In this document: positions 1 through 42,259 of the stretch, piece by piece
Position numbering within the stretch: position 1 is the stretch's first letter
Layout: each line of letters begins with the position of its first letter
Assembly: GCF_003992675.1 (NCBI RefSeq)
Contig: NZ_RZMZ01000012.1
Coordinates: 1-64,000 of the forward strand
Length of the DNA stretch: 64,000 bases
Source of the DNA: Flagellimonas marinaquae
GTDB lineage: Bacteria > Bacteroidota > Bacteroidia > Flavobacteriales > Flavobacteriaceae
Reading direction: 5' to 3'
Position numbers and translations under genes: made by a program
The notes under the pieces: model-generated
Databases searched by the model: none
Told to the model about the DNA's origin: nothing
Seen by the model: the letters and a program-made list of their open reading frames with translations, nothing else

Positions 1-630
1 ACCTTCTTCATCGAACCAAAGCCCATGGAGCCCACCAAGCACCAATACGACTTTGATGTGGCGACCGTAATCGGTTTTCTTACCAAATATGACCTTTTGG
101 ACGATTTCAAACTCAACATCGAGGTCAACCATGCCACCTTGGCCCAGCATACCTTTGAGCACGAGCTGCAAGTGGCCGCGGACAACAATATGCTGGGCAG
201 TATCGATGCCAACAGAGGGGATTACCAGAACGGTTGGGACACCGACCAGTTCCCCGTGGACGTTTACGAACTGGCTCAGGCCATGTTGGTCATCCTCCAG
301 GCCGGCGGATTCCAAGGTGGGGGCATAAACTTTGACGCGAAAATACGGAGGAACTCCACCGACCTCGAGGACATCTTCCATGCGCACATCGGGGGAATGG
401 ACGCCTTTGCAAGGGCCTTATTGGCCGCAAACGATATTTTGGAAAACTCCAAGTATCTTAGCCTACGTAAGAATCGCTATGCTTCCTTTGATGCTGGTTC
501 GGGAAAGGCATTTGAGGAAGGCCAGCTTTCACTGGAAGACCTTTACGCCCATGCCACAGCGCATCCGAACATTAAAAAGACCAGCGGGCGGCAAGAATTG
601 TTCGAGAATATAATCAATCAGTACATCTAA
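1..630 (+). CDS. xylA: Xylose isomerase, C-terminal part (cut by window edge)
   Basis: Xylose isomerase interconverts D-xylose and D-xylulose in the cytoplasm, the entry step to the pentose phosphate pathway. The frame is open from base 1 (reading [19 protein letters not shown]), so the 5' part lies outside the window. The visible ~210 residues carry family hallmarks: the EPKPMEP(T)KHQYD metal-site segment, the [17 protein letters not shown] helix and the GSIDANRGD segment that supplies metal ligands, followed by NGWDTDQFP. The end agrees with the normal end of class II enzymes (~440 aa). The next gene, 29 bp on, is a sugar symporter, giving a xylose uptake/isomerisation pair. Function is near certain from the motifs; only the missing N-terminus is unseen. 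Confidence 0.96.
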
Positions 631-659: not shown

Positions 660-2312
660 ATGGAATCAGTTTTAGAAAGACCGGATTGGATAGTCTTGGG
701 CATCTATTTTTTAGCCCTGATCGGTGTAGCCGTGTGGGTGGTATCCCAAAAAAACAAGAATACAGAAGACTATTTTCTGGCCGGTAGGAATGTAGGGTGG
801 TTTGTCATCGGAGCCTCTATTTTTGCATCAAATATCGGCTCGGAACATGTTGTTGGCCTGGCCGGAACCGGATTCGAATCGGGCACTCCAATGGCGCACT
901 ATGAACTTCACGCTTGGATTGTATTATTGCTCGGCTGGTTATTTCTTCCATTTTACATACGAAGTGGGGCCTTTACCATGCCTGAATTTTTGGAAAAGCG
1001 CTTTGATAGCCGATCTAGATGGTTCCTGTCCATTTTCTCTTTGGTGGCTTATGTGCTCACCAAGGTTTCGGTGACCATCTATGCTGGTGGTATAGTGGTT
1101 TCCGAGTTATTGGGCATCCCATTCTGGTATGGGGCCATTGGTGTGGTGGTGTTTACGGGCATATATACCGTAATCGGCGGGATGAAAGCCGTAATATATA
1201 CGGAAACACTTCAAACCATCATCCTTATTCTAGGCTCTTTGGTGATTACCTATTTAGGCCTACAGGAAGTAGGGGGATGGGCACAACTGCATGAAACCGT
1301 CACTTCGGTCAGTCCCGATCATTTTAATATGTGGCGACCGATGAGCGATCCCGATTTCCCTTGGACCGGACTGCTTTTTGGAGGTACCATCGTTGGTATA
1401 TGGTATTGGTGTACGGACCAGTATATCGTACAGCGTACCTTGGCGGCCAATAATATCAAAATCGGAAGAAGGGGTGCCATATTTGGGGCCTATCTGAAGT
1501 TGATGCCCATTTTGATTTTCCTGATTCCTGGAATCATAGCGTTTGCCCTAACGATTCAAAACCCAGAGGTATTTCATGTCGATCGTGCTGACCGGGCTTT
1601 TCCAATGTTGGTAACAACGCTCTTGCCAGTTGGTTTAAAAGGATTGGTGGCGGGTGGCTTGATGGCTGCCTTGATGAGCTCTTTGGCTTCGGTATTCAAT
1701 TCATGCTCTACCATTTTTACTATCGATATATATAAAAAATTACGTCCAGAAAAATCAGAAAGGGAATTATTGACCATTGGCAAAATTGCTACCGGAATTA
1801 TTGTGGTATTAGGGATTGTATGGATTCCTATTATGGAGAAAATTGGAGGTGGCGTCATGTACCAATATCTTCAAAATGTACAATCTTACATTGCTCCCCC
1901 AGTAACCACTGTTTTTTTATTGGGAATTATCTGGAAGCGTGTTAATTCGAAGGCGGCCATCACCACCTTGTTGGCGGGATTAGTCTTGTTGATTCTGCGT
2001 TTGGGTTCTGAAATTTATTACCAGCCACAAATTACGGCTGGAACTGAGGCAGCTGGCTTTTTGTTCCAATTTGCTACGGTGAATTTCGCCCACATGGCCA
2101 TATTCATGTTCATTTTTTCGATGCTTTTGTGCACTGGGGTTACCTTGGCCACCTCACCTCCCGATTATATTCGGATTAAAGGACTCTCTTTTGGGACCTT
2201 GTCTCCTGAGGACCGATTGGCGTCCAAGGGCAGTTACAGTACCATTGATGTCGTGCTATCGGTGCTGTTGGTCATTATTGTTGTTGCCGTTCTTTCCTAT
2301 TTCACGGGTTAA
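660..2312 (+). CDS. Sodium/solute symporter (SSS family), probable xylose/sugar transporter
   Basis: A 550-residue polytopic inner-membrane protein of the sodium:solute symporter family (SGLT-like). The N-terminus runs into a first hydrophobic helix (WIVLGIYFLALIGVAVWV), then the family segment NTEDYFLAGRNVGWFVIGAS, and the region around residues 50-70 (SNIGSEHVVGLAGTG) matches the sodium-site helix of vSGLT-type carriers. About 13-14 membrane helices can be traced, the last at the C-terminus (VVLSVLLVIIVVAVLSYF). It starts 29 bp after xylA and is followed by a strong terminator, so the two genes likely share a transcript. The substrate (xylose) is inferred from this context; other sugars such as glucose or galactose are possible. 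Confidence 0.9.
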   Translation: MESVLERPDWIVLGIYFLALIGVAVWVVSQKNKNTEDYFLAGRNVGWFVIGASIFASNIGSEHVVGLAGTGFESGTPMAHYELHAWIVLLLGWLFLPFYIRSGAFTMPEFLEKRFDSRSRWFLSIFSLVAYVLTKVSVTIYAGGIVVSELLGIPFWYGAIGVVVFTGIYTVIGGMKAVIYTETLQTIILILGSLVITYLGLQEVGGWAQLHETVTSVSPDHFNMWRPMSDPDFPWTGLLFGGTIVGIWYWCTDQYIVQRTLAANNIKIGRRGAIFGAYLKLMPILIFLIPGIIAFALTIQNPEVFHVDRADRAFPMLVTTLLPVGLKGLVAGGLMAALMSSLASVFNSCSTIFTIDIYKKLRPEKSERELLTIGKIATGIIVVLGIVWIPIMEKIGGGVMYQYLQNVQSYIAPPVTTVFLLGIIWKRVNSKAAITTLLAGLVLLILRLGSEIYYQPQITAGTEAAGFLFQFATVNFAHMAIFMFIFSMLLCTGVTLATSPPDYIRIKGLSFGTLSPEDRLASKGSYSTIDVVLSVLLVIIVVAVLSYFTG

Positions 2313-2700: not shown

Positions 2701-4266
2701 TTAAGAATTGAAAATAAGGTTATAACGGTGTTCGATATCCTTAATTTCACTTTCACTGAGTTGTACAAACTCTTTCTTTTTTGCTCTTTTGGACAAGGAG
2801 CCATCGTTTTGTTCCAAAAAGCGGACCAACAATGATACCATATCATCCGGCATTTCGTAGGTATTGTCAATGTAGTATTTAAACTCTTCATATTTGCCGA
2901 GATAGTTCACTTCATTTGGAATAATGTTCTCAATGGTATCCTTGACACAAGAGTATAAGAACTCAGCTTGTGGGGTCACATCAAAATAACGATAGTAATC
3001 TATTGTTTCGTTTATGACCTCCACGTTGTGGTCACTTGTTTCTTTCCAATCAATAAAATCCAATAGCGGGATGGAATACCCTTCCAATACTTTTTGATAA
3101 TCCCCAATATGGCTTAGTATGGATGCGGAAACCGGGAAAATCAAGCCCTGTTCCGAAAATTGCTTTTTTGCCAAAACATGATGGATCAAATAACGATGTA
3201 TTCGCCCATTTCCGTCGGCAAATGGATGTATAAATACAAAACCGAACGAAATACTGGCAGCAGCAAGTACTGCATCCATTTCGTTGTCCAATAGTTTTTG
3301 GTTGGTTTCCAATAATCCTGTCATAAGTTGTTGGATATCCTCGTGTTTGGCGGAGATATGATCTGGAACCGGAGAAAAGGTATCCCTGTCCCGTTCTCCT
3401 ATAAAACCACCTTTTTTCCGATACCCCATGTCAATAAAGCGTGAGTTTTCAATAACCAGTTGTTGTAGCCGTTCAAATTCATGATGACTAAGATCTTTCA
3501 TCCCTGCTTGACCTATAGCTTGTCCCCATCGTGCGGCACGTTTACTCTTTGGGCTTTCGCCTTCGATGGTGAAGGATGCCTTTGAATCCTTTAACAACAA
3601 AAATGCAGCTGCCCGTTGTAGGATACTTTTCCGAATGCCCTTGAGATAGGTGCTGTTTTTATTGGAGAGTTTTTCATTGATATATTGCTCCAACAATGCA
3701 GTTCTTCGTATCAATGGACAGAAGTCAACAGTTCCTGGCAAATTATTATTGACCATTTGTCTCGGCGATCGAATGCCCTTTATCCCAAATTGTTGTTTTG
3801 TATCGATAACATCCACATAACTCTTTTTGCTTAGGTCTGAAATCCCTGAAAGTTCCCTTTGCATCAACCATTCCACTAAAAACCATATCCTTCTTGAATA
3901 TTGGCCGGTTGGCTCGATACTGATTAATTGAGTCAGTTCATCTTCGGTATAATGCGTTGTAAGAGCGCTGAAAGTCAATAGATTTACACCTTCATACTTA
4001 AGTGCAAAAACAAGGTGCTTATATAATGCCTCCACTTCCGAGAGTTGAAGGGAATCATCCACTGCATAACTCTTTGGAAGATAAGTGAAACTTTTGTCCT
4101 TGATCCGTTTAGTTTTTAAACTGACGACTGTAAAGGGTATTGGTAATGGGACAGCGAGCCCTAACTTATGTATAATGGCTGCATAGCCAGAGATGATACC
4201 TTCTTCTGGAAGAACCACACCGTTAAAAACGGGTGCAACAAATGAAAAGTGGGCGCTTTTTAACAT
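2701..4266 (-). CDS. Fic family protein (probable AMP-transferase, autoinhibited class II)
   Basis: A 521-residue protein (531 if the upstream ATG at 4296 is used). The Fic core motif HPFADGNGRIHR lies at about residues 347-358 and has the catalytic His and complete G-N-G-R phosphate site, so it should transfer AMP or another phosphate-containing group to Ser/Thr/Tyr hydroxyls. About 115 residues earlier is SFTIEG, matching the (S/T)xxxE(G/N) inhibitory helix; its place before the Fic motif defines a class II, self-inhibited Fic. The long N-terminal domain is not recognised. No antitoxin gene sits beside it. Four imperfect GGCGC-type repeats overlap and precede the start, suggesting autoregulation. 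It lies between diverged direct repeats beside an integrase, so it is likely mobile-element cargo. The target protein is unknown. Confidence 0.9.
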   Translation of the reverse strand: MLKSAHFSFVAPVFNGVVLPEEGIISGYAAIIHKLGLAVPLPIPFTVVSLKTKRIKDKSFTYLPKSYAVDDSLQLSEVEALYKHLVFALKYEGVNLLTFSALTTHYTEDELTQLISIEPTGQYSRRIWFLVEWLMQRELSGISDLSKKSYVDVIDTKQQFGIKGIRSPRQMVNNNLPGTVDFCPLIRRTALLEQYINEKLSNKNSTYLKGIRKSILQRAAAFLLLKDSKASFTIEGESPKSKRAARWGQAIGQAGMKDLSHHEFERLQQLVIENSRFIDMGYRKKGGFIGERDRDTFSPVPDHISAKHEDIQQLMTGLLETNQKLLDNEMDAVLAAASISFGFVFIHPFADGNGRIHRYLIHHVLAKKQFSEQGLIFPVSASILSHIGDYQKVLEGYSIPLLDFIDWKETSDHNVEVINETIDYYRYFDVTPQAEFLYSCVKDTIENIIPNEVNYLGKYEEFKYYIDNTYEMPDDMVSLLVRFLEQNDGSLSKRAKKKEFVQLSESEIKDIEHRYNLIFNS

Positions 4267-4362
4267 TATATAAAAAATATAGGCGCAAGTTATCATAAAT
4301 ATACGTGCAGTACAATAAAAATAGGCGCAAATTTGGCAATTGTATAAAAAGTGGGCACGAGC
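4241..4362. promoter_or_regulatory. Four iteron-like repeats at the fic 5' end
   Basis: On the plus strand the motif A(3-5)-N(2-3)-GGCGC(A) occurs at about 4244-4256 (GAAAAGTGGGCGC), 4272-4286 (AAAAATATAGGCGCA), 4316-4330 (ATAAAAATAGGCGCA) and 4342-4358 (ATAAAAAGTGGGCACGA). All have the same orientation, spaced about 28-43 bp. The first lies inside the fic coding region and the others in its leader. They could be operators for the Fic protein or another regulator. No -7 box was found among them. Confidence 0.5.
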
Positions 4363-4767: not shown

Positions 4768-5985
4768 TTAGATAGCTTCAATTAACCGTTCATTATAATC
4801 ATCGAGTATAGTAGTAGGCAACGATTTGAGATAGATTTGAGTTGTATTCAGCTTACTATGCCCAAGCATAGCTGAAATGGCCTCTAAGGGAATGTTGTGA
4901 AGCATGGCTTGCGTAGCAAAGCTATGTCGGCTAACATAGGTTGTGAGTTTTTGCTCAATTCCGCATAGTTCTTGAATTTTTTTTAAGCCTCGATTATATC
5001 TTTGTCGTTCCCAATTGATCTCACGTTCCTGCTTAGCTGGATCATCTCGTTTTATCACAGGAAATATATAATCCTCTTCTTTCTTTCCTTTTAAATAAAT
5101 ATTCAAGATTTCTGTAAGTTGCTCGGATATTTTTATGTCATATAGCTTCCCGGTTTTTTTTCTACGAAATTTAATACGGCCGTTAACAATATTACTCACT
5201 TGGAGGTAGGCCATATCCGTAAAATTCATTCCATACAGAAAAAAGGAGCAAATAAAATAATTTCGATATCTAAACAGAGCTTGGTCTTCCGGAATCTCCA
5301 GTTCGATAATCTTTCTGATTTCTTCGATTTCTAAGGCCCGTTTTTCAGTTGGAATTTGTCTTATGGTATAGTTTGTAAAAGGATAAGCTTCCTTTTCAAT
5401 TAATCCCGCCTTTATACCTTTGTTGAAGAGTGCCCGAAGCCCACGTAGATAAGTAGATAAACCGTTCCAACTATTTCCTTTGGCCAAATGATGTTTTTCA
5501 AAACGTTTGATGAAAGAGTAATTCACTTCATTGAACTTAAGATCTTTGCCCTTGTTGAATGTCTTTAGGACGGATAATATACCTTTATAATGCCGAGCGG
5601 TCCCATACCTATGAGCGGCTTTTAAATCTTCAACCACAGCGTTTCCAAATTCAAAAAATGACTCATAGGTACTATTTCTCGTAATTCTTTTTTTGACTTC
5701 CACAATTGATAAATAGTTCAATTTGCCTTGGTCAGAAAGTTTGTTTAGAATATCATTTGCACGAGCTTCTTCCTTTAATAAAAGTGTATTTAATCTGGCA
5801 ATGGATTCTGTGCGGGTGTAGTTTCTTTTAATGGAACATTTTTGATGATCCCAAAATATTTCGGATATTGAAAACCCGGTTGCGATGGATGTTGTTTTAC
5901 GCAGATGGGTAAGGCGAAAAATGATAGGGTAGGAGCCATCTTTTTTAGCTCTTCTGGTGTCCAATAAAAGGGTCAAATACGTTCT
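4768..5985 (-). CDS. Tyrosine recombinase / site-specific integrase (Bacteroidota type)
   Basis: A 405-residue integrase of the tyrosine recombinase family, which would integrate or excise the element bounded by the tRNA-Arg fragment at 6139. The N-terminal arm-binding domain has the usual Bacteroidota pattern (LLLDTRRAKKDGSYPIIFRL), then a SAM-like core-binding domain. The C-terminal catalytic domain has the second-Arg box SRHSFATQA, the LGHSKLNTT box and the tyrosine in TQIYL. The first catalytic Arg is not seen: the expected RGM-F-DMAYL segment reads LYGMNFTDMAYL. CTnDOT-type integrases are also known to lack it. I chose the ATG at 5985 (MRTYLTLLL) because the longer frame from 6021 would overlap tandem 11-bp repeats that look like non-coding binding sites. 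Confidence 0.92.
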   Translation of the reverse strand, partial: RTYLTLLLDTRRAKKDGSYPIIFRLTHLRKTTSIATGFSISEIFWDHQKCSIKRNYTRTESIARLNTLLLKEEARANDILNKLSDQGKLNYLSIVEVKKRITRNSTYESFFEFGNAVVEDLKAAHRYGTARHYKGILSVLKTFNKGKDLKFNEVNYSFIKRFEKHHLAKGNSWNGLSTYLRGLRALFNKGIKAGLIEKEAYPFTNYTIRQIPTEKRALEIEEIRKIIELEIPEDQALFRYRNYFICSFFLYGMNFTDMAYLQVSNIVNGRIKFRRKKTGKLYDIKISEQLTEILNIYLKGKKEEDYIFPVIKRDDPAKQEREINWERQRYNRGLKKIQELCGIEQKLTTYVSRHSFATQAMLHNIPLEAISAMLGHSKLNTTQIYLKSLPTTILDDYNERLIEAI

Positions 5986-6009
5986 CATTAACTTCAAGTT
6001 AGCAAAAAA

Positions 6010-6031
6010 ATTTGCAAACAATTTGCAAACA
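6010..6031. repeat. Tandem 11-bp repeat, candidate integrase arm sites
   Basis: Two exact head-to-tail copies of ATTTGCAAACA (6010-6020 and 6021-6031) lie between the integrase start and the tRNA-Arg fragment. Direct repeats in this position are typical of arm-type binding sites, or they may be promoter operators. No binding data are implied. Confidence 0.55.
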
Positions 6032-6045
6032 AAAGGTCGTATTCA

Positions 6046-6067
6046 TTTGATATCAATTGATATCAAA
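6046..6067. promoter_or_regulatory. 22-bp perfect palindrome upstream of the integrase gene
   Basis: TTTGATATCAATTGATATCAAA equals its own reverse complement and is built of two abutting TTGATATCAA palindromes. It lies about 60 bp upstream of the chosen integrase start. It is a likely operator or accessory site for integration control. Confidence 0.6.
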
Positions 6068-6138
6068 GTAAACGTAACAAACTGAAAAACAATAAAATAA
6101 ATGTATTTCTGGCTTTTGAAGAATTGGCCTTAAAGCGG

Positions 6139-6183
6139 CTTCTAAGCAGACGGTCGAAGGTTCGAATCCTTCCGCGATCACCA
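6139..6183 (+). other. 3' fragment of tRNA-Arg(UCU): probable attachment site
   Basis: The sequence runs in tRNA order: anticodon loop CTTCTAA (anticodon TCT), GCAGA (3' anticodon stem), variable loop CGGTC, T-arm GAAGG-TTCGAAT-CCTTC, acceptor strand CGCGATC, discriminator A and CCA. The matching 5' pieces (GATCGCG, D-arm, TCTGC) are absent upstream, so the tRNA is not functional. A duplicated tRNA 3' end next to a tyrosine integrase is the classic product of integration into a tRNA gene. The fragment keeps its own downstream terminator, so the original chromosome lies to the right and the element to the left. Confidence 0.85.
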
Positions 6184-6193
6184 GAAACAAAAG

Positions 6194-6226
6194 GCCTTGG
6201 AAGTAACACTTTTCAAGGCTTTTTTT
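6194..6226 (+). terminator. Terminator of the original tRNA-Arg gene
   Basis: The stem GCCTTG (6194-6199) / CAAGGC (6214-6219), with inner AAGT / ACTT pairing, is followed by seven T. It lies 10 bp after the tRNA CCA end, as expected for the native tRNA transcript end. From here to 6395 I see no gene. Confidence 0.85.
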
Positions 6227-6395
6227 GTGAGGTGAGTATTCTTTCGTCCACTTTTCCCAAGTGCCAATCAAACCAAATTTGTAGGAAAATACATTGAATT
6301 TGTATACTAGACGAATTAAATATTCGTTATGGACTACAAATGTACACCTCTTAAGAGTGGATGTTAATTGGACTATTTTAAGTAAAATATGATTT

Positions 6396-7590
6396 ATGAA
6401 GTTAGCAGATGCAGAGCGCACTAAAATAGTGTATGAGCGAATCAAAAAATTAGGCGAGTTTGATTTGGATTACACAAGCCTCCATGAAGAATTCAAGGGC
6501 TTGGTAGAACTTGCAGCGCATATCGCTGGCACCGAAATTTCCCTTATCAATTTGCTTGACCAGCACTCCCAATGGAGTGTATCCCGGCATAATCTGGACG
6601 TCTTCCAAATGGATTTGGAGTATTCCATCTGTCAATACACAATTCAATCCGATCATATCATGGAAATTCCGCATCTGGGACATGATGAGCGGTTCAGTGA
6701 CAGACCTTTTGTTAAGGCAGATGACGGATTCCGTTATTATTTAGGCATTCCGCTCAAGGTGAAGACCGGAGAAAAAAATCGGTGCCCTTTGCGTGATGGA
6801 TCATGAGGAAAAAACCGTTTCAGAGGAAAAGAAAAAGTTGCTTCGCCTCGTTGCCAATGAGATTGTGGAAAAATTGGAGAGCAAATTAAAAATGGATGAA
6901 CTCCAAGATACATTGGATAAGTCCATCGTGCAGCGCAACCAATTGGCCCACGATGTGAGAGGTCCGGTTGGGGGTATTCTGGGTCTTGCAGTAAGTACGG
7001 AAAACGCACCTTTAGAGGAAGATGAATTTAGACAATATATGGGAATGATCAAAGGTGCTGCTTCAAAATTGATGGATTTGACCGATGATATTTTGGAGCG
7101 ACAAAAAGCTCGGCAACAAGAAAATCATTTGACACTTTCCAGCCTTAAAGAACATTTGGAGGACCTTTACGCCCTTCCTGCTCGTAATAAGGAAATTGAC
7201 CTTGACGTCGTTATTAATGGCGCCATGGGGAACCTAGAGTTTTCGAGAAAAAAACTGTTGCCTATTGTAGGGAATCTTATTGCTAATTCCATCAAATTTA
7301 CCCCATCCCAAGGAACTGTTCATGTTAATCTTGATATTGCGGATAAAGAAGGAGGTAGGGTCCTAATGATCGAAGTTCGTGACAACGGCAAGGGAATCCC
7401 CAAAGAACGATTGGATAATCTCAATAAATTGGCCTGGTTCGATGACCTCGGCACCAATTATGAAAAGGGGTATGGTCTTGGGCTTCAATTGGTCATGGAA
7501 ATGGTGGAGAGTATTCAAGGAACGCTTACCATTGATTCGGAAGAGGGTAAGGGTACAAGTGTACGCATTGTTATACCTTTAAAGGAGTAA
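6396..7590 (+). pseudogene. GAF-domain sensor histidine kinase, frameshifted in an A7 run
   Basis: Two overlapping frames (6396-6806 and 6793-7590) together make one ~398-codon kinase. The first part is a GAF sensor domain up to YYLGIPLKVKTGEK. In the second frame the domain continues as IGALCVMDHEEKT, then a coiled linker, a HisKA helix with the phospho-acceptor His in HDVRGP, and an ATPase domain with N-box (NSIKFT), G1 (DNGKGIP) and G2 (GYGLGLQL). The frames join exactly if the A7 run at 6772-6778 is read as A6. So either one base was inserted, or it is a sequencing error, or slippage restores the frame. There is no membrane helix, so this is a soluble sensor; no response regulator is adjacent. 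Confidence 0.85.
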
Positions 7591-7608
7591 GAAGTATATC
7601 CCTTTCGT

Positions 7609-7911
7609 ATGATATTGAAAAGAATCCTTCCGTTTGTTTTGGGCACCCTAGTGGTTTCTTCCTGTGGCAAACGAAGTAAGACACACGTGATCACTGATTT
7701 TTCGCAACCGGTTTTTGATACCTTGGTTCCTTACGAAAAGCCCCTTAAGCCCTATGGTGTTGCTCTGTTTAAAGTGCAAGGGTCTGTAAATGATACCATA
7801 GCCATTCGTTTTTTAGGCTTGGATAGAAAATATATGGGCTCTTTTTCAGACGACCTGAAAATGGAGTACTACGGTATGATTCCCGTTGCCTTTTTGTTTG
7901 ATCCATTATAG
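7609..7911 (+). CDS. Small lipoprotein of unknown function, possibly truncated by an in-frame TAG
   Basis: 100 residues with a lipoprotein signal (ILKRILPFVLGTLVVSSC, lipobox SSC at about residue 20). I do not recognise the family. The frame continues after the TAG at 7909 for 13 more codons (ATEGEVRVEFEIQ) to TAA at 7951, and this extension reads like normal protein. The original gene may therefore have ended at 7953, with the TAG a recent nonsense change. It starts 18 bp after the kinase and may be cotranscribed with it. It could be a damaged gene or a natural short form. Confidence 0.6.
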   Translation: MILKRILPFVLGTLVVSSCGKRSKTHVITDFSQPVFDTLVPYEKPLKPYGVALFKVQGSVNDTIAIRFLGLDRKYMGSFSDDLKMEYYGMIPVAFLFDPL

Positions 7912-7953
7912 GCCACCGAGGGTGAGGTTAGGGTCGAATTCGAAATCCAGTAA

Positions 7954-8275
7954 CATTCAATGTTGATGGTTGCCTCCTCTCGTACGGTAACCCATGTAAG
8001 CTGACGGCAGCAACGCTTCTTCTGGCACCAATTGTTTCTCTATCTAGTTGGATAGCTGGCTCAAAAAAAGGTTGCTAATCAACTCATTAGCGAATTTTAG
8101 TCGTTTTCAATTTCACTTTTCAGATGCTACTATTACTCATCTTGGATATTTAATATCTATAAAATAATAGTAAAACTATTAAATATGTTAGTTTAACTAT
8201 TATTTATGAATAGTAATAGTATTAATTTCGAGGTTTGCATCTATTTTTGCTGGATTAAATAAAACTTTGCAACCG
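7954..8275. promoter_or_regulatory. Control region of the carbonic anhydrase gene with repeated TAATAGT heptamers
   Basis: No gene is seen here. Five exact TAATAGT/ACTATTA heptamers occur within 92 bp: 8129-8135 (-), 8165-8171 (+), 8175-8181 (-), 8196-8202 (-) and 8214-8220 (+). The pair at 8165/8175 is a palindrome with a 3-bp spacer. The last heptamer ends 21 bp before the -7-like box TATTTTTG (8242-8249), about where a -33 region would lie. This is a plausible multi-site operator; the regulator is unknown. Confidence 0.55.
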
Positions 8276-9010
8276 ATGAAAAATAATTTGAATACGTTCG
8301 TTTTTGTACTCTCTTTGTTGGGCTTCAACACACTTTCAGCTCAAATGGGAGAGACCGTGGAAATTAGTAGAAGTGCTATACTTGTGGAGGATGTGTTGAC
8401 CGCAGAGGAACAGGCTGCGTTGACCCCTAACGATGTGTTGTTGCAGTTTCAGGCAGGTAATGAGCGTTTCGTGAGGAGCGATTTGACCGCACGGGACCAT
8501 TCCTTCCAAATCCGTGAAACAGCTGGTGCCCAGTATCCCAAGGCCATTGTTTTATCCTGCGTTGATAGTCGAGTTCCTGTGGAGGATGTTTTTGATAAGG
8601 GCATAGGCGATATTTTTGTTGCACGCGTGGCTGGAAATTTCGTGAACAACGATATTTTGGGAAGTATGGAGTTTGCCACCAAAGTAGCGGGAGCCAAATT
8701 GATTTTGGTGATGGCGCACGAGAATTGTGGCGCCATCCATGCGGCGATAGATGGCGTAGAACTTGGAAATATAACTGCCATGTTACAAAATATAAAACCA
8801 GCGGTTGAAATGTCCACCAAATCCGAAGGGGAACGTACGTCCAAAAACAGGCTACTAGTTCATGAAGTGGCAGAAAACAACGTATATCAGACCATTGATA
8901 ACATAAAGAAGGGTAGCCCCATTTTGAAAGAAATGTTCGATAAAGGTGAAATAGATATCCGTGGAGCGGTTTACGATATGGATACAGGAGTGGTTAATTT
9001 CTTGGATTGA
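8276..9010 (+). CDS. Exported beta-carbonic anhydrase
   Basis: Catalyses CO2 + H2O to bicarbonate + H+. The 244-residue protein starts at ATG 8276; a TTG nine bases earlier is less likely. A signal peptide (NTFVFVLSLLGFNTLSAQ) predicts a periplasmic enzyme, unlike most cytoplasmic beta-class enzymes. The zinc site is complete: Cys95-x-Asp97-x-Arg99 in CVDSR and His148-x-x-Cys151 in HENC. The 50-residue spacer between signal peptide and domain is not recognised. It is a single gene with the -7 box TATTTTTG 27 bp before the start and TAATAGT repeats further up, and it is closed by a large hairpin. Periplasmic placement suggests CO2/bicarbonate supply or pH control at the cell surface. Confidence 0.93.
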   Translation: MKNNLNTFVFVLSLLGFNTLSAQMGETVEISRSAILVEDVLTAEEQAALTPNDVLLQFQAGNERFVRSDLTARDHSFQIRETAGAQYPKAIVLSCVDSRVPVEDVFDKGIGDIFVARVAGNFVNNDILGSMEFATKVAGAKLILVMAHENCGAIHAAIDGVELGNITAMLQNIKPAVEMSTKSEGERTSKNRLLVHEVAENNVYQTIDNIKKGSPILKEMFDKGEIDIRGAVYDMDTGVVNFLD

Positions 9011-10118: not shown

Positions 10119-13100
10119 TTAATAGTTGATGAATATCCAGCCCTGTAACGGCGCACTTCCATCGCCAAGGTCTATGATGTATAGATAAGATCCTGCGGGA
10201 AGTTTTTCGTTCCTACTTTTATAGAAACCTTCCCAATTGTTACGGTAGGATTTAGTGGCAAACACTTCGTGACCCCATCGGTTGTAGACTTTGACCACGT
10301 TGTTCGGGTAATTGTCTATCCCTGGTATGATCCAGGCATCGTTGTTACCGTCCCCGTTAGGCGTAAAGGCCTGGGCGGGTACCAATAATGGTTCTTCGTC
10401 CGTAGGAAAGGCATCATCGAAATCGGCAACGCCGTCGTTGTCGTCATCTTCATCCATGGTATCGGGGATGCCATCGCCATCGGTATCCATGGGTTTGCTG
10501 GACGCATCGATAGGGTCGGTCCCTTCCATCAGTTCTACTTCATCGGAGTATCCGTCCCCGTCATCATCAGTATCTGCATTGTCCCCAATACCATCTCCAT
10601 CGGTATCCACAGTTTCACTGGCATCCATTGGGAAATCATCCTCGCTGTCAGGGATGCCATCATTGTCATCATCATTGTCTACATTGTCGCCTAAGCCGTC
10701 TCCATCGTTATCCGTATCGGTTACGCCGTCGTTATCATCATCGATATCTGCGTTATCACCAATACCATCACCGTCTACATCGGAGGTTTCGTTGGGGTCG
10801 TTGGGGAAGGCATCTTCAGCGTCTGGCACACCATCGTTGTCTGCATCATCGTCGGCGTTGTCGCCAGTTCCGTCACCATCGGTGTCGGTATCCTCGGAAG
10901 CATCCTTCGGGAAGGCATCTTCGGTATCCGGAGTACCGTCGTTATCATCGTCGCCATCGGTGTTGTCTCCTGTTCCGTCACCATCTGTGTCCGTATTTTC
11001 GGAAGCATCCTTCGGGAAGGCATCTTCGTTATCCGGAGTACCGTCGTTATCATCGTCGCCATCGGCGTTGTCGCCAGTTCCGTCACCATCGGTGTCGGTA
11101 TCCTCGGAAGCATCCTTCGGGAAGGCATCCTCGGTATCCGGAGTACCATCGTTATCGTCGTCCTCATCGGTATTGTCGCCAGTACCGTCGCCGTCTGTAT
11201 CGGTATCCTCGGAAGCATCTTTCGGGAAGGCATCTTCGTTGTCAGGTGTTCCGTCATTGTCGTCATCTTCGTCGGTATTGTCCCCTGTTCCGTCCCCATC
11301 AGTATCGGTATCTTCGGAAGCGTGCTTCGGAAAGGCATCTTCGTTGTCTGGAGTACCGTCGTTATCATCATCGTCATCGGCATTGTCGCCTGTTCCGTCA
11401 CCGTCTGTATCGGTATCTTCGGAAGCATCCTTCGGGAAGGCATCTTCGTTGTCCGGAGTGCCGTCGTTATCATCGTCCTCGTCGGCATTGTCGCCTGTTC
11501 CATCACCATCGGTGTCGGTATCCTCGGTAGGATCTTTCGGAAAGGCATCTTCGCTGTCCGGCGTACCATCGTTATCGTCGTCCTCGTCGGCATTGTCGCC
11601 AGTTCCGTCACCGTCCGTATCGGTATCTTCGGAAGCATCTTTCGGGAAAGCATCCTCAGAATCGGGAGTGCCGTCGTTGTCATCGTCGTCGTCGGCATTG
11701 TCGCCTGTTCCGTCACCGTCCGTATCGGTATCCTCGGTAGGATCTTTCGGGAAGGCATCTTCGCTGTCCGGCGTACCGTCGTTATCGTCGTCCTCGTCGG
11801 CATTGTCGCCTGTTCCGTCACCGTCCGTATCGGTATTTTCGGAAGCATCTTTAGGGAAAGCATCATCCGAATCGGGTGTACCGTCGTTGTCATCATCGTC
11901 ATCGGCATTGTCGCCTGTTCCGTCACCGTCGGTATCGGTATCTTCGGAAGCATCCTTCGGGAAAGCGTCCTCGGTATCGGGAGTACCGTCGTTATCGTCG
12001 TCGTCATCCAAATCATCCTGGATTCCATCACCATCCGTGTCCTGCGAAGCGTTGATACTTGCGGTATAGCTGGAAGCACTAACCGCGTCATCGTTGTCCT
12101 TCACTTTGAATGAGAAAGAGCTATAACTGTCTCCGTACTCACCAATGGCCGTTAAGTAGGTCAATAGGGATATGTCATCGATCATATCATTGACCCCTAC
12201 CGCTGAACCATTGTACTCCAAGATACCTTTGGCGGGCAACGATATTACTTGAATACCATTAAAGGAATCATTGGGGTCCACATCGGTAAAAGTAAAGTCT
12301 GCTGTCGTAAAGGTGTAGGCGGCATCCTGAATCACTTCCACGGTGCTATTGGCTCCTGATGGAACATCGTTCACGTTGGTGATGTTCAAGGTTGCAGTCA
12401 CGGTCTGCGAAAAGGAAACGGCATCTTCAAAATTATAGGTAAAGCTATCCGTTGCCGATTCGTCACCATTGTGCTCGTAGGTAAAGGTTCCATCTGGATT
12501 AAAGGTAAATGCTGCTGCATGGGAAGGATTGGTAATGATGTGGTATACCAAATCATCTCCGTCGATTTCCACATCGTTGGTGGATACGTCATCGTTTAAG
12601 GTGGCATTTTCATCCAAATTGAAGCTATCGTCATTGGCTATTGGCTCGTCGTCCTCTGGTAAAATAGAAAGCGTAATGTTTGCTGTAACTTTCTGTCCTT
12701 GGTCATCCAACTCGTAGGTTACCGTATCGGTACCATTTTCATTGGCATTTGGTGTGTAAATCACTTGATTACTGCTGTTGACCACGGCATTTCCCTTGGT
12801 TCCTTGGGCGGTTATGGTCACTGTTGGGGTAGCACCCATATCGTACACATCGTTGTAGAGCACATCGATGGGGTCCGACACGGTATCCTCGTCCAAAATA
12901 GCCAAATCATCGTCGGAACTAACCACTAGGGTAATGTTATAAGGGCCAAATGTTGCGGTTCCCACATTTCCTGCATTGTCTTTTACTTCAGCGTGAATGT
13001 ACCAGCCAGCACCCCCGGTATTGAAGGACGTGGTCTTGGACTGACTATTGCTCCAAGAACTCCATGAAGCGTGGTCGGTTGTAGGTGCAGAGACACTTTG

Positions 13101-15350
13101 GATTTTGGCAAATCGCTGCACGTCAAAGCCGCTGCCACCATTTTCATCTTGGAACACCAACTGAATATCCGTGTTGGTATCCAAGTTTCCACTGGTTGGG
13201 TTGGCTGTGATGGTCGGGTCGGTATTATCATCCACAATCGTCAGGGTACGATAAAAGGGTTCGGACCAAACCCCTGTATTGGTCTGTGTCCGTAGGCTTA
13301 TAATGTAATCTGCTGACAGATTGTTGTAAGCCGAAAAATCGGTCATGGGCGTACCAGCATTATAAATTTGGGTGTCAGAAGGATTCCCGTCGGTATCATA
13401 GGTACGTTGGGTAACGATCCATTCCTGTACGGATAGGGTTCTTCCGTAGGGGTCAACCGAATTATCCACAATTCCAATGGTCATATTGCCCGTATAGGTA
13501 TTGATCAAATCGGGTTGGATGTTGAACTGCGCAATGGGCAAATCCGTTGCTCCGCCTGAACTGGCTGTTTTTTCAACGTAGATACTGGTTGGACTGCTCC
13601 AAGTGCCTTGGTGGTCCTGAACCCTCAGCATCACCAAATATTCTCCATCGGGAACGGAGTTTTTATCAAATTGTCCAATGGTCCAATCGTTGGTTGAGGT
13701 GGCATCTACGGCCTTCCATTTCCATTCGGATTGGTTGATACCGTTATTGGCACCCCCATCCAAATCGTATGAGGTGTTGTTGATGAATCCGGTATCCGCA
13801 CTATAAGTAAAACTGGCCACTGGTTTCCTGTGAAAGAAAAGGGTAGTGGGCGCGGTTGGCAAATCCTCAAAAGTGAAAGAGTATTTACCCGGTTTTTCAT
13901 AGAATTCCGGTACATCTTCCAAATAGAGTCCGTCCCAAGATACCTTTCCGGTGTTGTTATCAAAATAAGTTTCGTCATGCGTAATCTTCCATCTTCCCGA
14001 AGGATAACTGGCATTGGCCGTATTGGATTTTAACTGGGCGGGGTCTACGTCGATTTCGACCGAGGTGCCCGCAATAAAGAATTCCCCTGCGGTAACGGTC
14101 CCAAATTGATACTGATCGTAAATGTATTGCGCCATATCGTCCATCCAGCTTGACCAGCTTCCAGCATCCCGGTTGATGAAGGTTCCCTGAGCGTTGTTCT
14201 GTTGAATAAAACGTTCAAACTGCGCTTGGTTGGCATTGGTTCCCCAGCCGAGATAGTGGATATCTTCATTGATGGTACGCATCAAAATTTCGGAAAGGTC
14301 TTGATCACTATCAAAATCGGCAACTTCGATATCATCCAAGTTGACGTTAAAACGCAGAGCACTGTTTCTCCACTGTGGTTCACGAAGTACGTCCTTGAAG
14401 GCACGTAGCTCCAATTTTTCGATATTGATATCCTTGAAATAGGCATTTTGCTGTTCATGTACATAGAATCCGTAACTGCCTGAAGGGAAAGAAGTATCTG
14501 TGATGTCAAAAGATTGGATCCAGTCGGTGCCAGCATTGCCGCCACCACCTCTACGCGAGATTTTGATGTTGTCGCCCGACATTTCTATTTTAAAATCAAT
14601 TTTTTGGCCATTGTAGAAGGCGGCGAACATATCGGCCCTGTTGGCATCCCATCCGTAGGTGGCCGAGCCGGAACGTCCGCTACTGGTGTTCACAGCCAAA
14701 ATGGTAGTAACCCCGTTTTCTCTTTTTAAGATGGCCTCGGCTGGAAACCCGTCACCATTGGCGTAGTTCATTAGGTTTCCACAATACGTGTGGTTGTCGA
14801 TGATATAAGCGTAGAAATTGTCGTTATCTACCTTTCTAAAGATAAACCCAACTTCCGCATGGGTGTAGGGTGAACCGGATAGTCCGAATGTGGCGGATAT
14901 GGTCCCGTCGGCTACATCCCCAGTTGGGTCGTACATCGCATAGCCGTAACCGTTATATCTGTTTACGAAATCTGCGATGATTTGATTGGTTCCTGAATCA
15001 AAGGAAAAGTAATCTCCCGTGTAAGAGGAGTGAACAGGAGGCTCAGTACCGTTGAAATTCATTTTGTTCCAGCTGTTAAAAATGTCGCTGGCATCTGCTT
15101 GATCGGAAGAAATGGAACTCCGTTGAAAGGCTTCCACTCTTAGTTTGCCCAGTGGGATTCCTTTGGCATACATGGCCTGTTCCAAATCGTTCTCAAAAGT
15201 GGAAAGATCCAAATTTGCTGATCCAACAGTGACCATTACATCCACATTTGGTCCCTGTTGTACTGTCATATCTACTGTTTGGGCCTGAATAGCACCGCAA
15301 AGCAGAAAAAGGGTGAAAAGTGTTAGTGAGGTTTGTAAAAAATGTTTCAT
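10119..15350 (-). CDS. Giant T9SS-exported surface protein with cadherin-like domains and thrombospondin type 3 repeats
   Basis: 1743 residues. In order: signal peptide (1-23); a lectin/LamG-like beta region (about 90-310); PKD/Ig-like segments to about 800; cadherin/VCBS-like tandem domains (about 810-1090, e.g. DDEPIANDDSFNLDENATL and NITNVNDVPSG); about 15 thrombospondin type 3 units (about 1098-1650); and a type-B gliding-motility C-terminal domain (from about 1660: FTPNGDGNNDAWIIPGI, KVYNRWGHEVF, LPAGSYLYIIDLGDG). The repeats contain DxDxDGxxD calcium loops, so the stalk should stiffen with calcium. The C-terminal domain marks secretion by T9SS. The gene is flanked by a DUF4347-like gene (11 bp upstream) and PorP/SprF (26 bp downstream). 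Likely role: cell-surface adhesion or gliding. The ligand is unknown. Confidence 0.92.
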   Translation of the reverse strand: MKHFLQTSLTLFTLFLLCGAIQAQTVDMTVQQGPNVDVMVTVGSANLDLSTFENDLEQAMYAKGIPLGKLRVEAFQRSSISSDQADASDIFNSWNKMNFNGTEPPVHSSYTGDYFSFDSGTNQIIADFVNRYNGYGYAMYDPTGDVADGTISATFGLSGSPYTHAEVGFIFRKVDNDNFYAYIIDNHTYCGNLMNYANGDGFPAEAILKRENGVTTILAVNTSSGRSGSATYGWDANRADMFAAFYNGQKIDFKIEMSGDNIKISRRGGGGNAGTDWIQSFDITDTSFPSGSYGFYVHEQQNAYFKDINIEKLELRAFKDVLREPQWRNSALRFNVNLDDIEVADFDSDQDLSEILMRTINEDIHYLGWGTNANQAQFERFIQQNNAQGTFINRDAGSWSSWMDDMAQYIYDQYQFGTVTAGEFFIAGTSVEIDVDPAQLKSNTANASYPSGRWKITHDETYFDNNTGKVSWDGLYLEDVPEFYEKPGKYSFTFEDLPTAPTTLFFHRKPVASFTYSADTGFINNTSYDLDGGANNGINQSEWKWKAVDATSTNDWTIGQFDKNSVPDGEYLVMLRVQDHQGTWSSPTSIYVEKTASSGGATDLPIAQFNIQPDLINTYTGNMTIGIVDNSVDPYGRTLSVQEWIVTQRTYDTDGNPSDTQIYNAGTPMTDFSAYNNLSADYIISLRTQTNTGVWSEPFYRTLTIVDDNTDPTITANPTSGNLDTNTDIQLVFQDENGGSGFDVQRFAKIQSVSAPTTDHASWSSWSNSQSKTTSFNTGGAGWYIHAEVKDNAGNVGTATFGPYNITLVVSSDDDLAILDEDTVSDPIDVLYNDVYDMGATPTVTITAQGTKGNAVVNSSNQVIYTPNANENGTDTVTYELDDQGQKVTANITLSILPEDDEPIANDDSFNLDENATLNDDVSTNDVEIDGDDLVYHIITNPSHAAAFTFNPDGTFTYEHNGDESATDSFTYNFEDAVSFSQTVTATLNITNVNDVPSGANSTVEVIQDAAYTFTTADFTFTDVDPNDSFNGIQVISLPAKGILEYNGSAVGVNDMIDDISLLTYLTAIGEYGDSYSSFSFKVKDNDDAVSASSYTASINASQDTDGDGIQDDLDDDDDNDGTPDTEDAFPKDASEDTDTDGDGTGDNADDDDDNDGTPDSDDAFPKDASENTDTDGDGTGDNADEDDDNDGTPDSEDAFPKDPTEDTDTDGDGTGDNADDDDDNDGTPDSEDAFPKDASEDTDTDGDGTGDNADEDDDNDGTPDSEDAFPKDPTEDTDTDGDGTGDNADEDDDNDGTPDNEDAFPKDASEDTDTDGDGTGDNADDDDDNDGTPDNEDAFPKHASEDTDTDGDGTGDNTDEDDDNDGTPDNEDAFPKDASEDTDTDGDGTGDNTDEDDDNDGTPDTEDAFPKDASEDTDTDGDGTGDNADGDDDNDGTPDNEDAFPKDASENTDTDGDGTGDNTDGDDDNDGTPDTEDAFPKDASEDTDTDGDGTGDNADDDADNDGVPDAEDAFPNDPNETSDVDGDGIGDNADIDDDNDGVTDTDNDGDGLGDNVDNDDDNDGIPDSEDDFPMDASETVDTDGDGIGDNADTDDDGDGYSDEVELMEGTDPIDASSKPMDTDGDGIPDTMDEDDDNDGVADFDDAFPTDEEPLLVPAQAFTPNGDGNNDAWIIPGIDNYPNNVVKVYNRWGHEVFATKSYRNNWEGFYKSRNEKLPAGSYLYIIDLGDGSAPLQGWIFINY
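10396..12050 (-). repeat. Tandem 105-bp coding repeats (thrombospondin type 3 array)
   Basis: The core of the array repeats every 105 bp exactly; for example, the TTCGGGAAGG word encoding F-P-K recurs at 10906 and 11011. Each unit encodes 35 residues of the form DTDTDGDGTGDNADEDDDND followed by GTPDxEDAFPKDAS. About 12 units are near-identical and those at the 10.4-10.8 kb end are more diverged. Such homogeneity implies recent expansion or gene conversion, and copy number may vary between strains or be mis-assembled. Confidence 0.92.
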
Positions 15351-28384: not shown

Positions 28385-29674
28385 TTACTTGGCGAGTCCC
28401 GCTTGTGAGAGGGTAATCAATAGTGCTAATTGAATAGATTCGTCGCCGGGCTCATCGTTCAAAAACCACTCATGCAGGGAATGTGCACCGCCTCCTTGCC
28501 CACCACGTCCAATACAAATCGCGGGAATGCCCTTGGCTACTGGAATATTGATGTTTGTGGAACCACGTCCCAAACTGGGTTTTACACCAAAATGTTGGGT
28601 CGCTGCCATGGCTCGTTGTATCAACGGAAGCGATGCCGGTAACTCACCAGAGGGTCTATCCCCAATTTTAATGAGTTCATACGTAACTTCGCCACGAATA
28701 CCGCTCGCGTTGTATTCTTTTATGGCCTTTGCTACGGATTCCTTAAAAACAATCTCGATTTCATCGAGGTTCTTTGGGTCAATGGCCCGCATGTCAACTT
28801 CCATCCACGACTCAAAGGGAATGGAATTCACCGAAGTTCCGCCCCCAATACGGCCCACATTAAAACTGGTTTTTGGACTATGCGTTGATGTATATTCCCA
28901 TGCAGCTTTGGAAAATATATCGATAGCCTTGCCCAAGGCGTGATGCGGATTGGCTAAGCCAAAAGCACCCCAAGAATGACCTCCTGGCCCCTTGACCATT
29001 AATTTATAACGCTTGGAACCCAGTCCCGCATTACTGATTCGTCCTAAACTTCCACCATCGATGGCAATCCACGCATCGATATCCAATCCTGATTCGTTGA
29101 ACATATACTTCATACCACGAAGGTCTCCGAGTCCCTCCTCGCCAACGGTGCCAACAATGAGTAAATCTTTTTCGGTTTTAATTTCCGCCTTGTTCATGGC
29201 TTTGAGCATACTGATCAGCATGGCCAAACCGCGGGTATCGTCCCCAATACCGGGAGCTTTTAAGGTATCCCCGACTTTTTTTACAGTCACATCCGTTCCT
29301 TCTGGAAAAACAACATCCAAATGGGCGTCCACTCCAACGTAACCCGAAGCACTGGAAGCTCCTTTTCGCAATCCGATGACATTGCCCACCTTATCCGTCC
29401 AAATACTGTCCACGCCAGCTTCTTCGAGCATTCGAGCAAAGACTTTTCCCCTTTCCGTTTCCATAAAAGGTGGGGCTAAAATCTCGGTCAGGGTAATGAG
29501 ATCCTTGGTGGTCTCATCCTTTTGTGCCTTTATATATCCAAAAGCCTCTTCCACTTTCTTGTTTTTGGCCAAGCGGTCTACTTCTTTGGTATATTTTTTT
29601 TCAATTTCCTGACTGGTCAGCGTAGTGCAAAACAATCCGAATGCACATGCAAGGCAAAGTGATAATTTATTCAT
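28385..29674 (-). CDS. Exported M20/M25/M40 family metallopeptidase
   Basis: 429 residues from the ATG at 29674. A signal peptide (LSLCLACAFGLFCTTLTS) predicts a periplasmic enzyme. Motifs of the two-zinc M20 family: VGVDAHLDVV (first His/Asp), GIGDDTRGLAML (bridging Asp), TVGEEGLGDL (catalytic Glu-Glu) and a late SLHEW His. The dimerisation lid (KRYKLMVKGPGGHSWGAFG) matches peptidase T/CPG2-like members. It probably hydrolyses peptides or acyl-amino acids. Its start overlaps the end of the upstream aminotransferase gene, so the two are cotranscribed and may act on a shared amino-acid pool. Confidence 0.9.
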   Translation of the reverse strand: MNKLSLCLACAFGLFCTTLTSQEIEKKYTKEVDRLAKNKKVEEAFGYIKAQKDETTKDLITLTEILAPPFMETERGKVFARMLEEAGVDSIWTDKVGNVIGLRKGASSASGYVGVDAHLDVVFPEGTDVTVKKVGDTLKAPGIGDDTRGLAMLISMLKAMNKAEIKTEKDLLIVGTVGEEGLGDLRGMKYMFNESGLDIDAWIAIDGGSLGRISNAGLGSKRYKLMVKGPGGHSWGAFGLANPHHALGKAIDIFSKAAWEYTSTHSPKTSFNVGRIGGGTSVNSIPFESWMEVDMRAIDPKNLDEIEIVFKESVAKAIKEYNASGIRGEVTYELIKIGDRPSGELPASLPLIQRAMAATQHFGVKPSLGRGSTNINIPVAKGIPAICIGRGGQGGGAHSLHEWFLNDEPGDESIQLALLITLSQAGLAK

Positions 29675-29676
29675 AG

Positions 29677-30582
29677 TCAAATAGTTTGTTGGTTCATATA
29701 GGTTTGAAATGTTAGATCTGAGGTGTCTTTTTCCCTTAACAGGGCAAATGCTTCCTGTAGTTGACGGGTCACTGCCCCAACCTGATTATCTTCAAAATAC
29801 ACATGCTTACCAAGTTGTGCAATGGCGGCCACTTGTGTGGTCGTGCCCGTAAAGAAGGCTTCGTCCATTTGTTCAATTTCACTTTGGGCTACAGGCTTTT
29901 CCACCACAGGTATGCCAAGCTCAAGGCAAAGTTGAATCACAATCATTCGGGTAACCCCATTAAGAATATGTTCGTCGGCCGGATGGGTAATCACCTTGCC
30001 CTCTTTTACGAAAAAGATATTGGTATGGGAACCTTCGGTAAGATAACCAGCCCTGACCAAAGCGGCCTCATCGGCACCTGCGTTCATGGCAGCTTCGTTC
30101 GCCATAATATTTCCCAGCAGGGAGACTGATTTGATATCGCAACGATGCCATCGAACATCGGGTTCCAGAATAGTGGTCATCTGCTTTGGGTTAATTCTTG
30201 GCAATTCATAAGGCAGCGCATACATCATCACACTTGCAGTTGCTTCCTTCGGATAAGCGTGTTTTCGCGCAGCAATACCACGTGTCACTTGCATGTAGAT
30301 CAGACAAGATTTTTCTGTTAGTCCAGCGGATTTCAGCAATGCTTCCAGATGGTGTTCAATTTCTTCCACATGGAAAGCGATATGGATTTTGTTCAAGTTG
30401 TCCTGTAATCGGTCGAGGTGGGCTTGTTTATAAAAAATCCCGTTTTCCAACTGCATCATTACTTCGTAAATACCATCCCCGAACAGGAATCCACGGTCAA
30501 ATACGGATATCTGCGCATCCTCGGATGAGCGAATCTCACCATTGATAAACACTTTTGGAGGAAAATTTCCTTGGGGGAGCAT
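29677..30582 (-). CDS. Aminotransferase class IV, probable D-amino-acid transaminase
   Basis: 301 residues from ATG 30582 (MLPQGNFPP); a longer frame to 30618 exists. PLP enzyme of fold IV: the Lys in the DIKSVSLLGNIMANEAA segment is the PLP Schiff-base residue, Glu in YLTEGSHTNIFFV contacts the pyridine N, and the C-terminal TGTTTQVAAI binds phosphate. The segment VTRGIAARKHAYP has the Arg-x-His arrangement typical of D-alanine transaminase rather than branched-chain or aminodeoxychorismate enzymes. It would interconvert D-Ala and D-Glu with 2-oxo acids for peptidoglycan or D-amino-acid use. A VanX-type D-Ala-D-Ala dipeptidase lies about 2 kb away. Confidence 0.85.
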   Translation of the reverse strand: MLPQGNFPPKVFINGEIRSSEDAQISVFDRGFLFGDGIYEVMMQLENGIFYKQAHLDRLQDNLNKIHIAFHVEEIEHHLEALLKSAGLTEKSCLIYMQVTRGIAARKHAYPKEATASVMMYALPYELPRINPKQMTTILEPDVRWHRCDIKSVSLLGNIMANEAAMNAGADEAALVRAGYLTEGSHTNIFFVKEGKVITHPADEHILNGVTRMIVIQLCLELGIPVVEKPVAQSEIEQMDEAFFTGTTTQVAAIAQLGKHVYFEDNQVGAVTRQLQEAFALLREKDTSDLTFQTYMNQQTI

Positions 30583-30790
30583 AGGTTTGCAGCTTAACGT
30601 GAAAAAGTTGATGTTCAAAAACTGTGAAGTTAACCGTTATTCCGTTCAATTGAAAATTCGGGTATCAAAGTTTGCTTGGAAACTTTTATGATTTTAGCCA
30701 ACTATCGCATCGAATCAGAAAAACGGGTATTTGTTCGGAAGGTTTTCATTTTTGTCCACTTTTCCCGTACTTCACCAAAAAAGAAAGTAT

Positions 30791-31312: not shown

Positions 31313-31324
31313 CTTGTGTACGTA

Positions 31325-32044: not shown

Positions 32045-32049
32045 TACTG

Positions 32050-32769: not shown

Positions 32770-32823
32770 TTTTTATCAACCAGCTAGTTCAATCTGAAAT
32801 TGTTTCGATTGGCGAAATCAACA

Positions 32824-34008: not shown

Positions 34009-34015
34009 ACTGTTG

Positions 34016-35116: not shown

Positions 35117-35119
35117 TGA

Positions 35120-35770: not shown

Positions 35771-35835
35771 GATGAAGCGATTGACCTTTCCCTCAAAAAT
35801 AGAACATTCCTTTGTAAAATTGATGGTGTTTGTTT

Positions 35836-36543: not shown

Positions 36544-36560
36544 AGCAAAGGTTTTATAGT

Positions 36561-37589: not shown

Positions 37590-37614
37590 AGGTTTTGGAA
37601 CAAAAATTGGTCAT

Positions 37615-37643
37615 CAAAGGTAAAACATAAAAACCCTATCAAA
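37615..37643 (-). promoter_or_regulatory. Bacteroidota-type promoter for the tsaD operon
   Basis: On the minus strand, -33 TTTG (37643-37640) and -7 TACCTTTG (37622-37615) are separated by 17 bp, matching the TTTG/TAnnTTTG consensus of the Bacteroidota primary sigma factor. The -7 box is 25 bp before the tsaD ATG and lies within the leader of the divergent tamB gene. Confidence 0.7.
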
Positions 37644-37661
37644 AAACTTCGAAAAATACTG

Positions 37662-42242: not shown

Positions 42243-42259
42243 ACCTCTTAAAAATTTGA

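Follow-up and report, generated by a model that had tools for sequence, protein, structure and literature searches.

The right end of a probable 57-kb, PUL-bearing integrative element in tRNA-Arg(UCU) of Flagellimonas marinaquae

Positions 4768-6226 of the window, by which we mean the whole stretch of DNA analysed (64,000 nucleotides, bases 1-64000 of contig C12 in the 18-contig, 3.42-Mb genome of Flagellimonas marinaquae), are very probably the right end, comprising attachment site and integrase, of an integrative element of approximately 57 kb (element B) that would lie in tRNA-Arg(UCU) in tandem with a second element, A. The order that we infer is tRNA, A, tRNA fragment, B, tRNA fragment, old chromosome. 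A preliminary description of the window had placed the end of an integrated element here and gave the coordinates correctly; the two tandem elements go beyond it, as does the intermediate tRNA fragment at C4:293841-293883, which is the true left end of the window's element.

The tRNA-Arg fragments, the integrase and its arm repeats

The features of the right end and of the adjoining cargo within the window are:

1..630, plus strand: 3' part of the island copy of the xylose isomerase gene (xylA); bases 1-557 overlap the end of C4, and the C4 part is a xylose isomerase (NCBIfam)
660..2312, plus strand: sodium:solute symporter adjoining xylA, cargo of B (PF00474, E 3.2e-94)
2701..4296, minus strand: Fic/DOC-family protein, cargo of B (PF02661, E 2.5e-12)
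4768..5988, minus strand: tyrosine integrase belonging to B, 406 aa long with ATG 5988 as its start, the longest ORF reaching to TTG 6021 (PF17293, PF13102, PF00589)
6011..6032, plus strand: pair of 11-bp direct repeats TTTGCAAACAA in the right arm, predicted to be arm-type sites for the integrase, with a 19-mer core unique to the ends of B
6139..6183, plus strand: right attachment site, 45 bp: the tRNA-Arg(UCU) 3' part in displaced position, running from the anticodon loop (CTTCTAA) through CCA, by pattern match to the intact gene
6184..6226, plus strand: native terminator of tRNA-Arg, which forms a hairpin followed by T residues and aligns with G005, G010 and G001 across the joined site

The 45-bp fragment at 6139-6183 is, as had been claimed, a tRNA-Arg(UCU) 3' part without a 5' half, and neither ARAGORN nor Rfam called a tRNA in the window. 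A search for an intact gene with the same 3' part, which the preliminary description had proposed as a check, led to tRNA-Arg(tct) at C4:274832-274905, the only tRNA-Arg(UCU) gene found in this genome. It lies on the same strand as the window fragment and matches it in 44 of 45 bases, the sole mismatch being CCA (C12) versus CTA (C4). The intact gene is invisible in the window because contig C12 extends just 6 kb leftward, as far as an assembly fork. Since the reversed fragment pattern gave no match in this genome or across 59 genomes including it, a chance origin of the fragment is ruled out. To its right, the hairpin aligns with the sequence following intact tRNA-Arg in the 3 relatives listed above, in agreement with the native terminator proposed earlier, and the stretch 6184-6232 folds with -16.9 kcal/mol (z -3.2). 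Joined to the left flank on C4, the C12 fragment gives a complete tRNA-Arg (ARAGORN), which supports the earlier argument that the element extends leftward.

The 43 bp shared by the copies run from the anticodon loop to just beyond the discriminator base. Counted with at most 2 mismatches in 36 same-genus genomes, our own included, this 43-mer has at least 2 copies in 15, one in 19 and none in 2. The second fragment of our genome (C4:293841-293883) has a different T-stem form, AT, while the intact gene and the C12 fragment both have GA. In G015 and G028, the intact gene has the AT form and the fragment the GA form, and 2 differing forms also occur in Allomuricauda ochracea. These forms fit an incoming 3' part that would rebuild the tRNA and displace the old part. 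Separately, we noted that G021 has 3 tRNA-Arg copies, all pointing the same way, within 97 kb (G021:C7:145045-241702), the intact one (ARAGORN) with an altered anticodon-stem side; this region looks like another tandem array.

We propose that B entered the anticodon-loop half of tRNA-Arg(UCU) through site-specific recombination. Its own tRNA 3' part and terminator would have rebuilt the tRNA on the left, while the native 3' part and terminator would have been displaced to the right end, now in the window. Element A (19 kb) would later have entered the rebuilt tRNA, turning the tRNA part of B into the fragment at C4:293841; that B arrived first is suggested by the position of A, which adjoins the tRNA.

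The tyrosine integrase said to adjoin the fragment is an intact ORF on the minus strand, with arm-binding (PF17293), SAM-like (PF13102) and Phage_integrase (PF00589) domains in Pfam. ATG 5988 is more likely its start than TTG 6021, since 3 relatives (L131, L132 and L133) have an in-frame stop immediately upstream of that codon; for the same reason, the first 11 residues of the TTG-start ORF were rejected as coding. The usual motif at the first catalytic arginine of such enzymes is GLR. Here, that arginine is absent, the integrase reading GMN, and the HxxR position reads YVSR (compared with 8 relatives of at least 67% identity that have residues at the motif rows).

The 19-bp repeat core occurs at exactly 2 sites in 3.42 Mb with one mismatch allowed, C12:6012-6030 and C4:293932-293950, and the left arms of our element B and of the elements in G001, G018 and G028 all have the same paired repeat. 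On the right, the TTTGCAAACAA pair stands 128 and 117 bp before the fragment (127 and 116 bp in 2 loci) in 11 of 14 named relatives, the exceptions being L139 with 3 copies (139, 128 and 117 bp) and L140 and L149 with one exact copy each. The B integrase is thus likely to bind the paired repeats in both arms, and would cut within the shared 43 bp. The integrase of element A was also considered as the recombinase acting on B and rejected, as its arm repeats differ: A has TGCAACATNCCTGCAACA at 274958 and 293708, close to both of its ends (C4:263000-345293 examined).

The contig fork and the join of C4 to C12

C12 starts inside the duplicated xylA, and its first 557 bases recur unchanged at the ends of C4, C13 and C11, so that sequence alone permits both join paths. 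Relatives argue for C4-C12. In 4 of them (G018, G001, G005 and G016), the native xyl locus is contiguous as C13 genes, xylB, xylA and C11 genes; this order pairs C13 with C11 and leaves C4 to join C12. Moreover, one contiguous element is present in each of G001, G018 and G028. Its left arm corresponds to C4 from 293841 as far as 293951 or 293975, and its right arm to C12 from 4526, 4694 or 4767 as far as about 6181. The stretches matched by the left arms are short (112-135 bp, 43 of them tRNA part); G001 additionally matches C4:294193-299843 at 87%, and its left arm is also like C12:6139-6226 (89% over 92 bp).

The flanks point the same way. The preliminary description had suggested comparison with a relative in which the site is empty. 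In both G016 and G029, tRNA-Arg has left-flank genes of C4 on one side and right-flank genes of C12 on the other; the C12 genes are those at 16363, 23031, 19727 and 28385 in G016, and in G029 the one at 16363 and then genes of 28385-43246. The tRNA thus adjoins C12 genes in 2 relatives, whereas no empty site was found within the species. Overall, C12 right-flank genes (at least 45% identity over half the gene) are present in 7 of 40 same-genus stretches around tRNA-Arg or its fragment; these stretches represent 33 of 35 same-genus relatives, the remaining 2 having no match to the tRNA-Arg pattern. For the genes immediately right of the fragment (6396-9010), the relatives' stretches contain no close match (best 33%, a kinase), and the GAF-histidine kinase was therefore dropped as a native right-neighbour marker. 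The GAF and histidine-kinase ORFs (6396-6806 and 6793-7590) are in different frames and overlap at a stretch of seven consecutive A (6772-6778), which means either a frameshift or an assembly indel. Further right, 10119-15350 encodes a protein of 1743 aa that has long, acidic repeats of DTDGDGTGDNADDDDDNDGTPD type, beside a gene that we take by eye to be PorP/SprF-like.

Given the C4-C12 join, which would cross the assembly break and is drawn from the comparison of relatives rather than from a read, element B runs from C4:293841 to the contig end and on through C12:558-6183, a total of 57,079 bp. Measured per 100 bp, identity between the island copy of xylB-xylA and the native one is 78-89%, up to a 557-bp tract within xylA where the two do not differ. 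This suggests gene conversion between island and chromosome, and the tract caused the assembly break that hides the intact tRNA from the window. Alternatively, the joins could be C4-C11 and C13-C12, a later crossover between the xylA copies having split B and cut the window end from the left end. All 4 contig ends do have the same 557 bp, and identity over this tract in copies otherwise 78-89% alike shows recombination between them. The xylB of G001, G005 and G016 is also slightly closer to the C4 copy than to the C13 copy. Of 19 same-genus xylA loci, 9 have a C12-type symporter (79-97% identical) next after xylA and 7 a C11-type one, so the xyl genes alone cannot decide the join. We nevertheless consider such a crossover very unlikely: C13 and C11 genes are contiguous around xylB-xylA in the 4 relatives above, the ends of B and the tRNA flanks fit C4-C12 without rearrangement, and gene conversion accounts for the tract without exchange of flanks.

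Cargo of elements A and B

Element A (C4:274864-293883, 19,020 bp) encodes type I restriction enzyme subunits, its own integrase (C4:278396-279610), RadC and several DUF proteins. Element B, with the C4-C12 join, begins with a left module of 3 ORFs without Pfam match, RadC, DUF6876 and SSB. Within the left module, L015:11663-13990 (C4:294563-296890) encodes a 405-aa protein together with 114- and 115-aa ORFs. No family was found for the 405-aa protein in Pfam, NCBIfam or PHROGs, and some distant homologs have a HEPN domain. Relatives of this module (77-86%) occur at 7 places in 6 other genomes, 2 of them near an approximately 50% identical integrase with related arm repeats.

B then carries 2 loci, each with a SusC/SusD pair and carbohydrate-active enzymes, as expected of a polysaccharide utilization locus (PUL). 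PUL 1 has an ECF sigma factor, FecR, SusC and SusD (SusC/SusD at C4:305371-310245), a LacI-type regulator, sulfatases with a sulfatase-modifying protein, GH43, aldose epimerase, galactokinase and GalT. PUL 2 has an ECF sigma factor, FecR, SusC and SusD (C4:328808-333549), GH13, GH43, an acetylesterase-like protein and an ADP-ribosylglycohydrolase. From these enzymes, the substrates would be galactan and xylan. Among the matches listed from 58 other genomes, with at most 12 candidates scored per genome, nothing exceeds 38% identity to the PUL 2 SusC. PUL 2 is followed by a xylulokinase-like protein (its best NCBIfam match, under the cut-off) and then by xylose isomerase (NCBIfam), whose window part has no Pfam match by itself. 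The earlier suggestion that the island may include the xylose isomerase and symporter genes was right, both lying inside element B. Besides the PULs, B carries genes for galactose and xylose breakdown, the latter including the xylose isomerase and symporter genes of the window.

In a Pfam scan of 40 of the 45 B ORFs of at least 100 aa, an excisionase being expected among the shorter ones, we found no relaxase or conjugation gene, the hallmarks of an integrative conjugative element. The same scan, together with PHROGs on 8 B proteins, returned no phage structural or packaging family. Phages also use a tyrosine integrase and a tRNA target, but with that result and a catabolic cargo, we give virtually no credence to B being a prophage.

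Relatives and exchange of cargo

The integrase was found at 25 loci. Fourteen are near full length at 67% identity or more (L129-L141 and L149; 67-99%), and all 14 have the tRNA-Arg(UCU) 3' part beside the integrase. Another 7, at 46-52% identity (L142-L148), stand near the 3' parts of what we read by eye as other tRNAs, 126-168 bp off in 6 and 330 bp in one, and 4 partial matches (L150-L153) have no tRNA 3' part beside them. The integrase protein is 95% identical in another genus. With a single yardstick gene, taken by eye to be tsaD, integrase DNA identity exceeds that of tsaD in 5 of 11 genomes (L129-L133) and not in the other 6 (L135-L140). The values are 98.0 versus 82.0% for L129 (G001), 88.7 versus 81.3% for L130, 87.2 versus 79.3% for L131, 86.6 versus 73.4% for L132 (Euzebyella marina) and 87.2 versus 78.9% for L133. 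As the excess is confined to these 5, it supports recent transfer for the close group only.

The cargo of siblings was surveyed in 11 delimited elements and in up to 10 kb beside the integrase at the 14 named loci. The 41.7-kb element of G001 (Allomuricauda MAG MCMED-G25) holds an alginate-type locus in place of B's loci. Its proteins include chondroitinase-B-family and alginate-lyase-family members (the latter with oligoalginate lyase as best NCBIfam match, under its cut-off), SusC, SusD, an MFS transporter, a PfkB kinase and KDPG aldolase. By contrast, the elements of G018 (10.6 kb) and G028 (14.8 kb), with the same ends as B, have no SusC/SusD match; G018 encodes a BfmA/BtgA protein and a MobB relaxase, and G028 a NikA-like protein and a MobA/VirD2-like relaxase. 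An 18.8-kb element in Allomuricauda ochracea was rejected as a PUL carrier, since it has a sulfatase and a sulfatase-modifying protein and no SusC/SusD match in 10 kb. Among the 11 delimited elements, SusC/SusD occurs only in our B and in G001, at a threshold (E 1e-8) and with a marker pair that other PUL types could escape.

This distribution bears on whether the PULs arrived with this integrase. They could instead have accreted inside or between older insertions, with only the ends belonging to an integrase module, and the 2 short elements with the same ends, together with the restriction of SusC/SusD to 2 of 11, fit such a history. In addition, G+C varies among parts of B from 35.8 to 43.5%, and relative to G001, the left module is 87% and the integrase region 97% identical, indicating differing histories. 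However, B contains no additional tRNA-Arg fragment and no additional arm repeat, and the layout in G001 is alike (left module, PUL, integrase). Accretion is, in our judgement, rather unlikely, and arrival of the PULs with the element is the reading that we follow.

Whether B can still move is a separate matter. The integrases of 3 siblings (L138, L141 and L149) are interrupted by a stop or frameshift, so that some elements of this integrase family look immobile. B itself could be a dead island that was integrated in the distant past and has lost the ability to move: its scanned ORFs yielded neither a relaxase nor a conjugation gene, and element A stands between B and the intact tRNA. On the other hand, the integrase ORF and both arm repeats are intact, G001 has a near-identical integrase, and there is the 95% identical protein in another genus. 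We regard a dead island as possible but not probable, and B as an element that may be active and would have travelled between cells.

Taken further, one module (integrase, 11-bp arm repeats and tRNA-Arg core) may be a cargo-swapping vehicle that moves whole PULs between species and genera of marine Flavobacteriaceae. Its cargo would be of sulfated-galactan and xylan types here, of alginate type in G001 and mobilization genes elsewhere, and it could rewrite the T-stem of its target on insertion. For this broader proposal, we see the chances as evenly balanced.

The integrase resembles the IntCTnDOT subgroup as described in PMC8138268 in its Bacteroidota host, its arm-binding, core-binding and catalytic domains and its arm-type repeats. 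As in part of that subgroup, the first catalytic arginine is replaced (GMN in B), the likeness being one of domains and motif; unlike the subgroup, B reads YVSR at HxxR and targets tRNA-Arg(UCU). The 10K genomic island of Riemerella anatipestifer, reported to excise and form a circle (PMC6764341), is likewise from Flavobacteriales, with an Arg-tRNA site and a tyrosine integrase; it differs in being 10 kb long with a 53-bp repeat of another sequence, a repeat located in Arg-tRNA in that paper's abstract and adjacent, downstream, in its results. Siblings G018 and G028, with their relaxases, fit the type of the integrative and mobilizable elements (review: PMC5704250), whereas no relaxase was found in B's scanned ORFs.

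Islander, as presented in PMC4383910, catalogues islands in tRNA genes and has an anticodon class of attachment site; its set of 3919 islands includes 125 tandems with at least two members and 4 with at least three. B shares with these islands an intact tRNA, a downstream 3' fragment in the same orientation, an internal integrase and an anticodon-centred site, the order across contigs being that proposed above. Its length lies within the 2-200 kb range (57,079 bp if C4 joins C12), and the joined tRNA-Arg is intact, with the tRNA adjoining C12 genes in 2 relatives. As in Islander tandem arrays (PMC4383910), there is one fragment and one integrase per member, A having its own integrase and the fragment at C4:293841. 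B differs from Islander islands (PMC4383910) in being split over 2 contigs and in having PULs as cargo.

Among the best-ranked literature matches on PULs, islands and integrases (titles and abstract openings), we found no tRNA-Arg PUL element in this genus. In gut Bacteroides, PULs are carried on integrative conjugative elements. B is like these in having whole PULs as mobile cargo, and unlike them in its marine Flavobacteriaceae host, its tRNA-Arg target and the lack of conjugation genes among its scanned ORFs. PUL transfer in marine Flavobacteriaceae is usually deduced from gene trees, the vehicle being seldom visible, while here it is visible with exact ends, and one sibling has an alginate-type locus. 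A study from 2025 on the alginate loci of this genus (PMC12323373) emphasises vertical inheritance with some transfers, and its main text has no occurrence of the terms integrase, tRNA, mobile or genomic island. With ends this short and fixed in sequence, any genome or set of reads can be scored for occupancy, cargo and excision. The mode of insertion (a tRNA-targeted island, an anticodon-loop site and a tandem array) is already known, and B is a new example of it; the interest lies instead in the cargo and its swapping among relatives.
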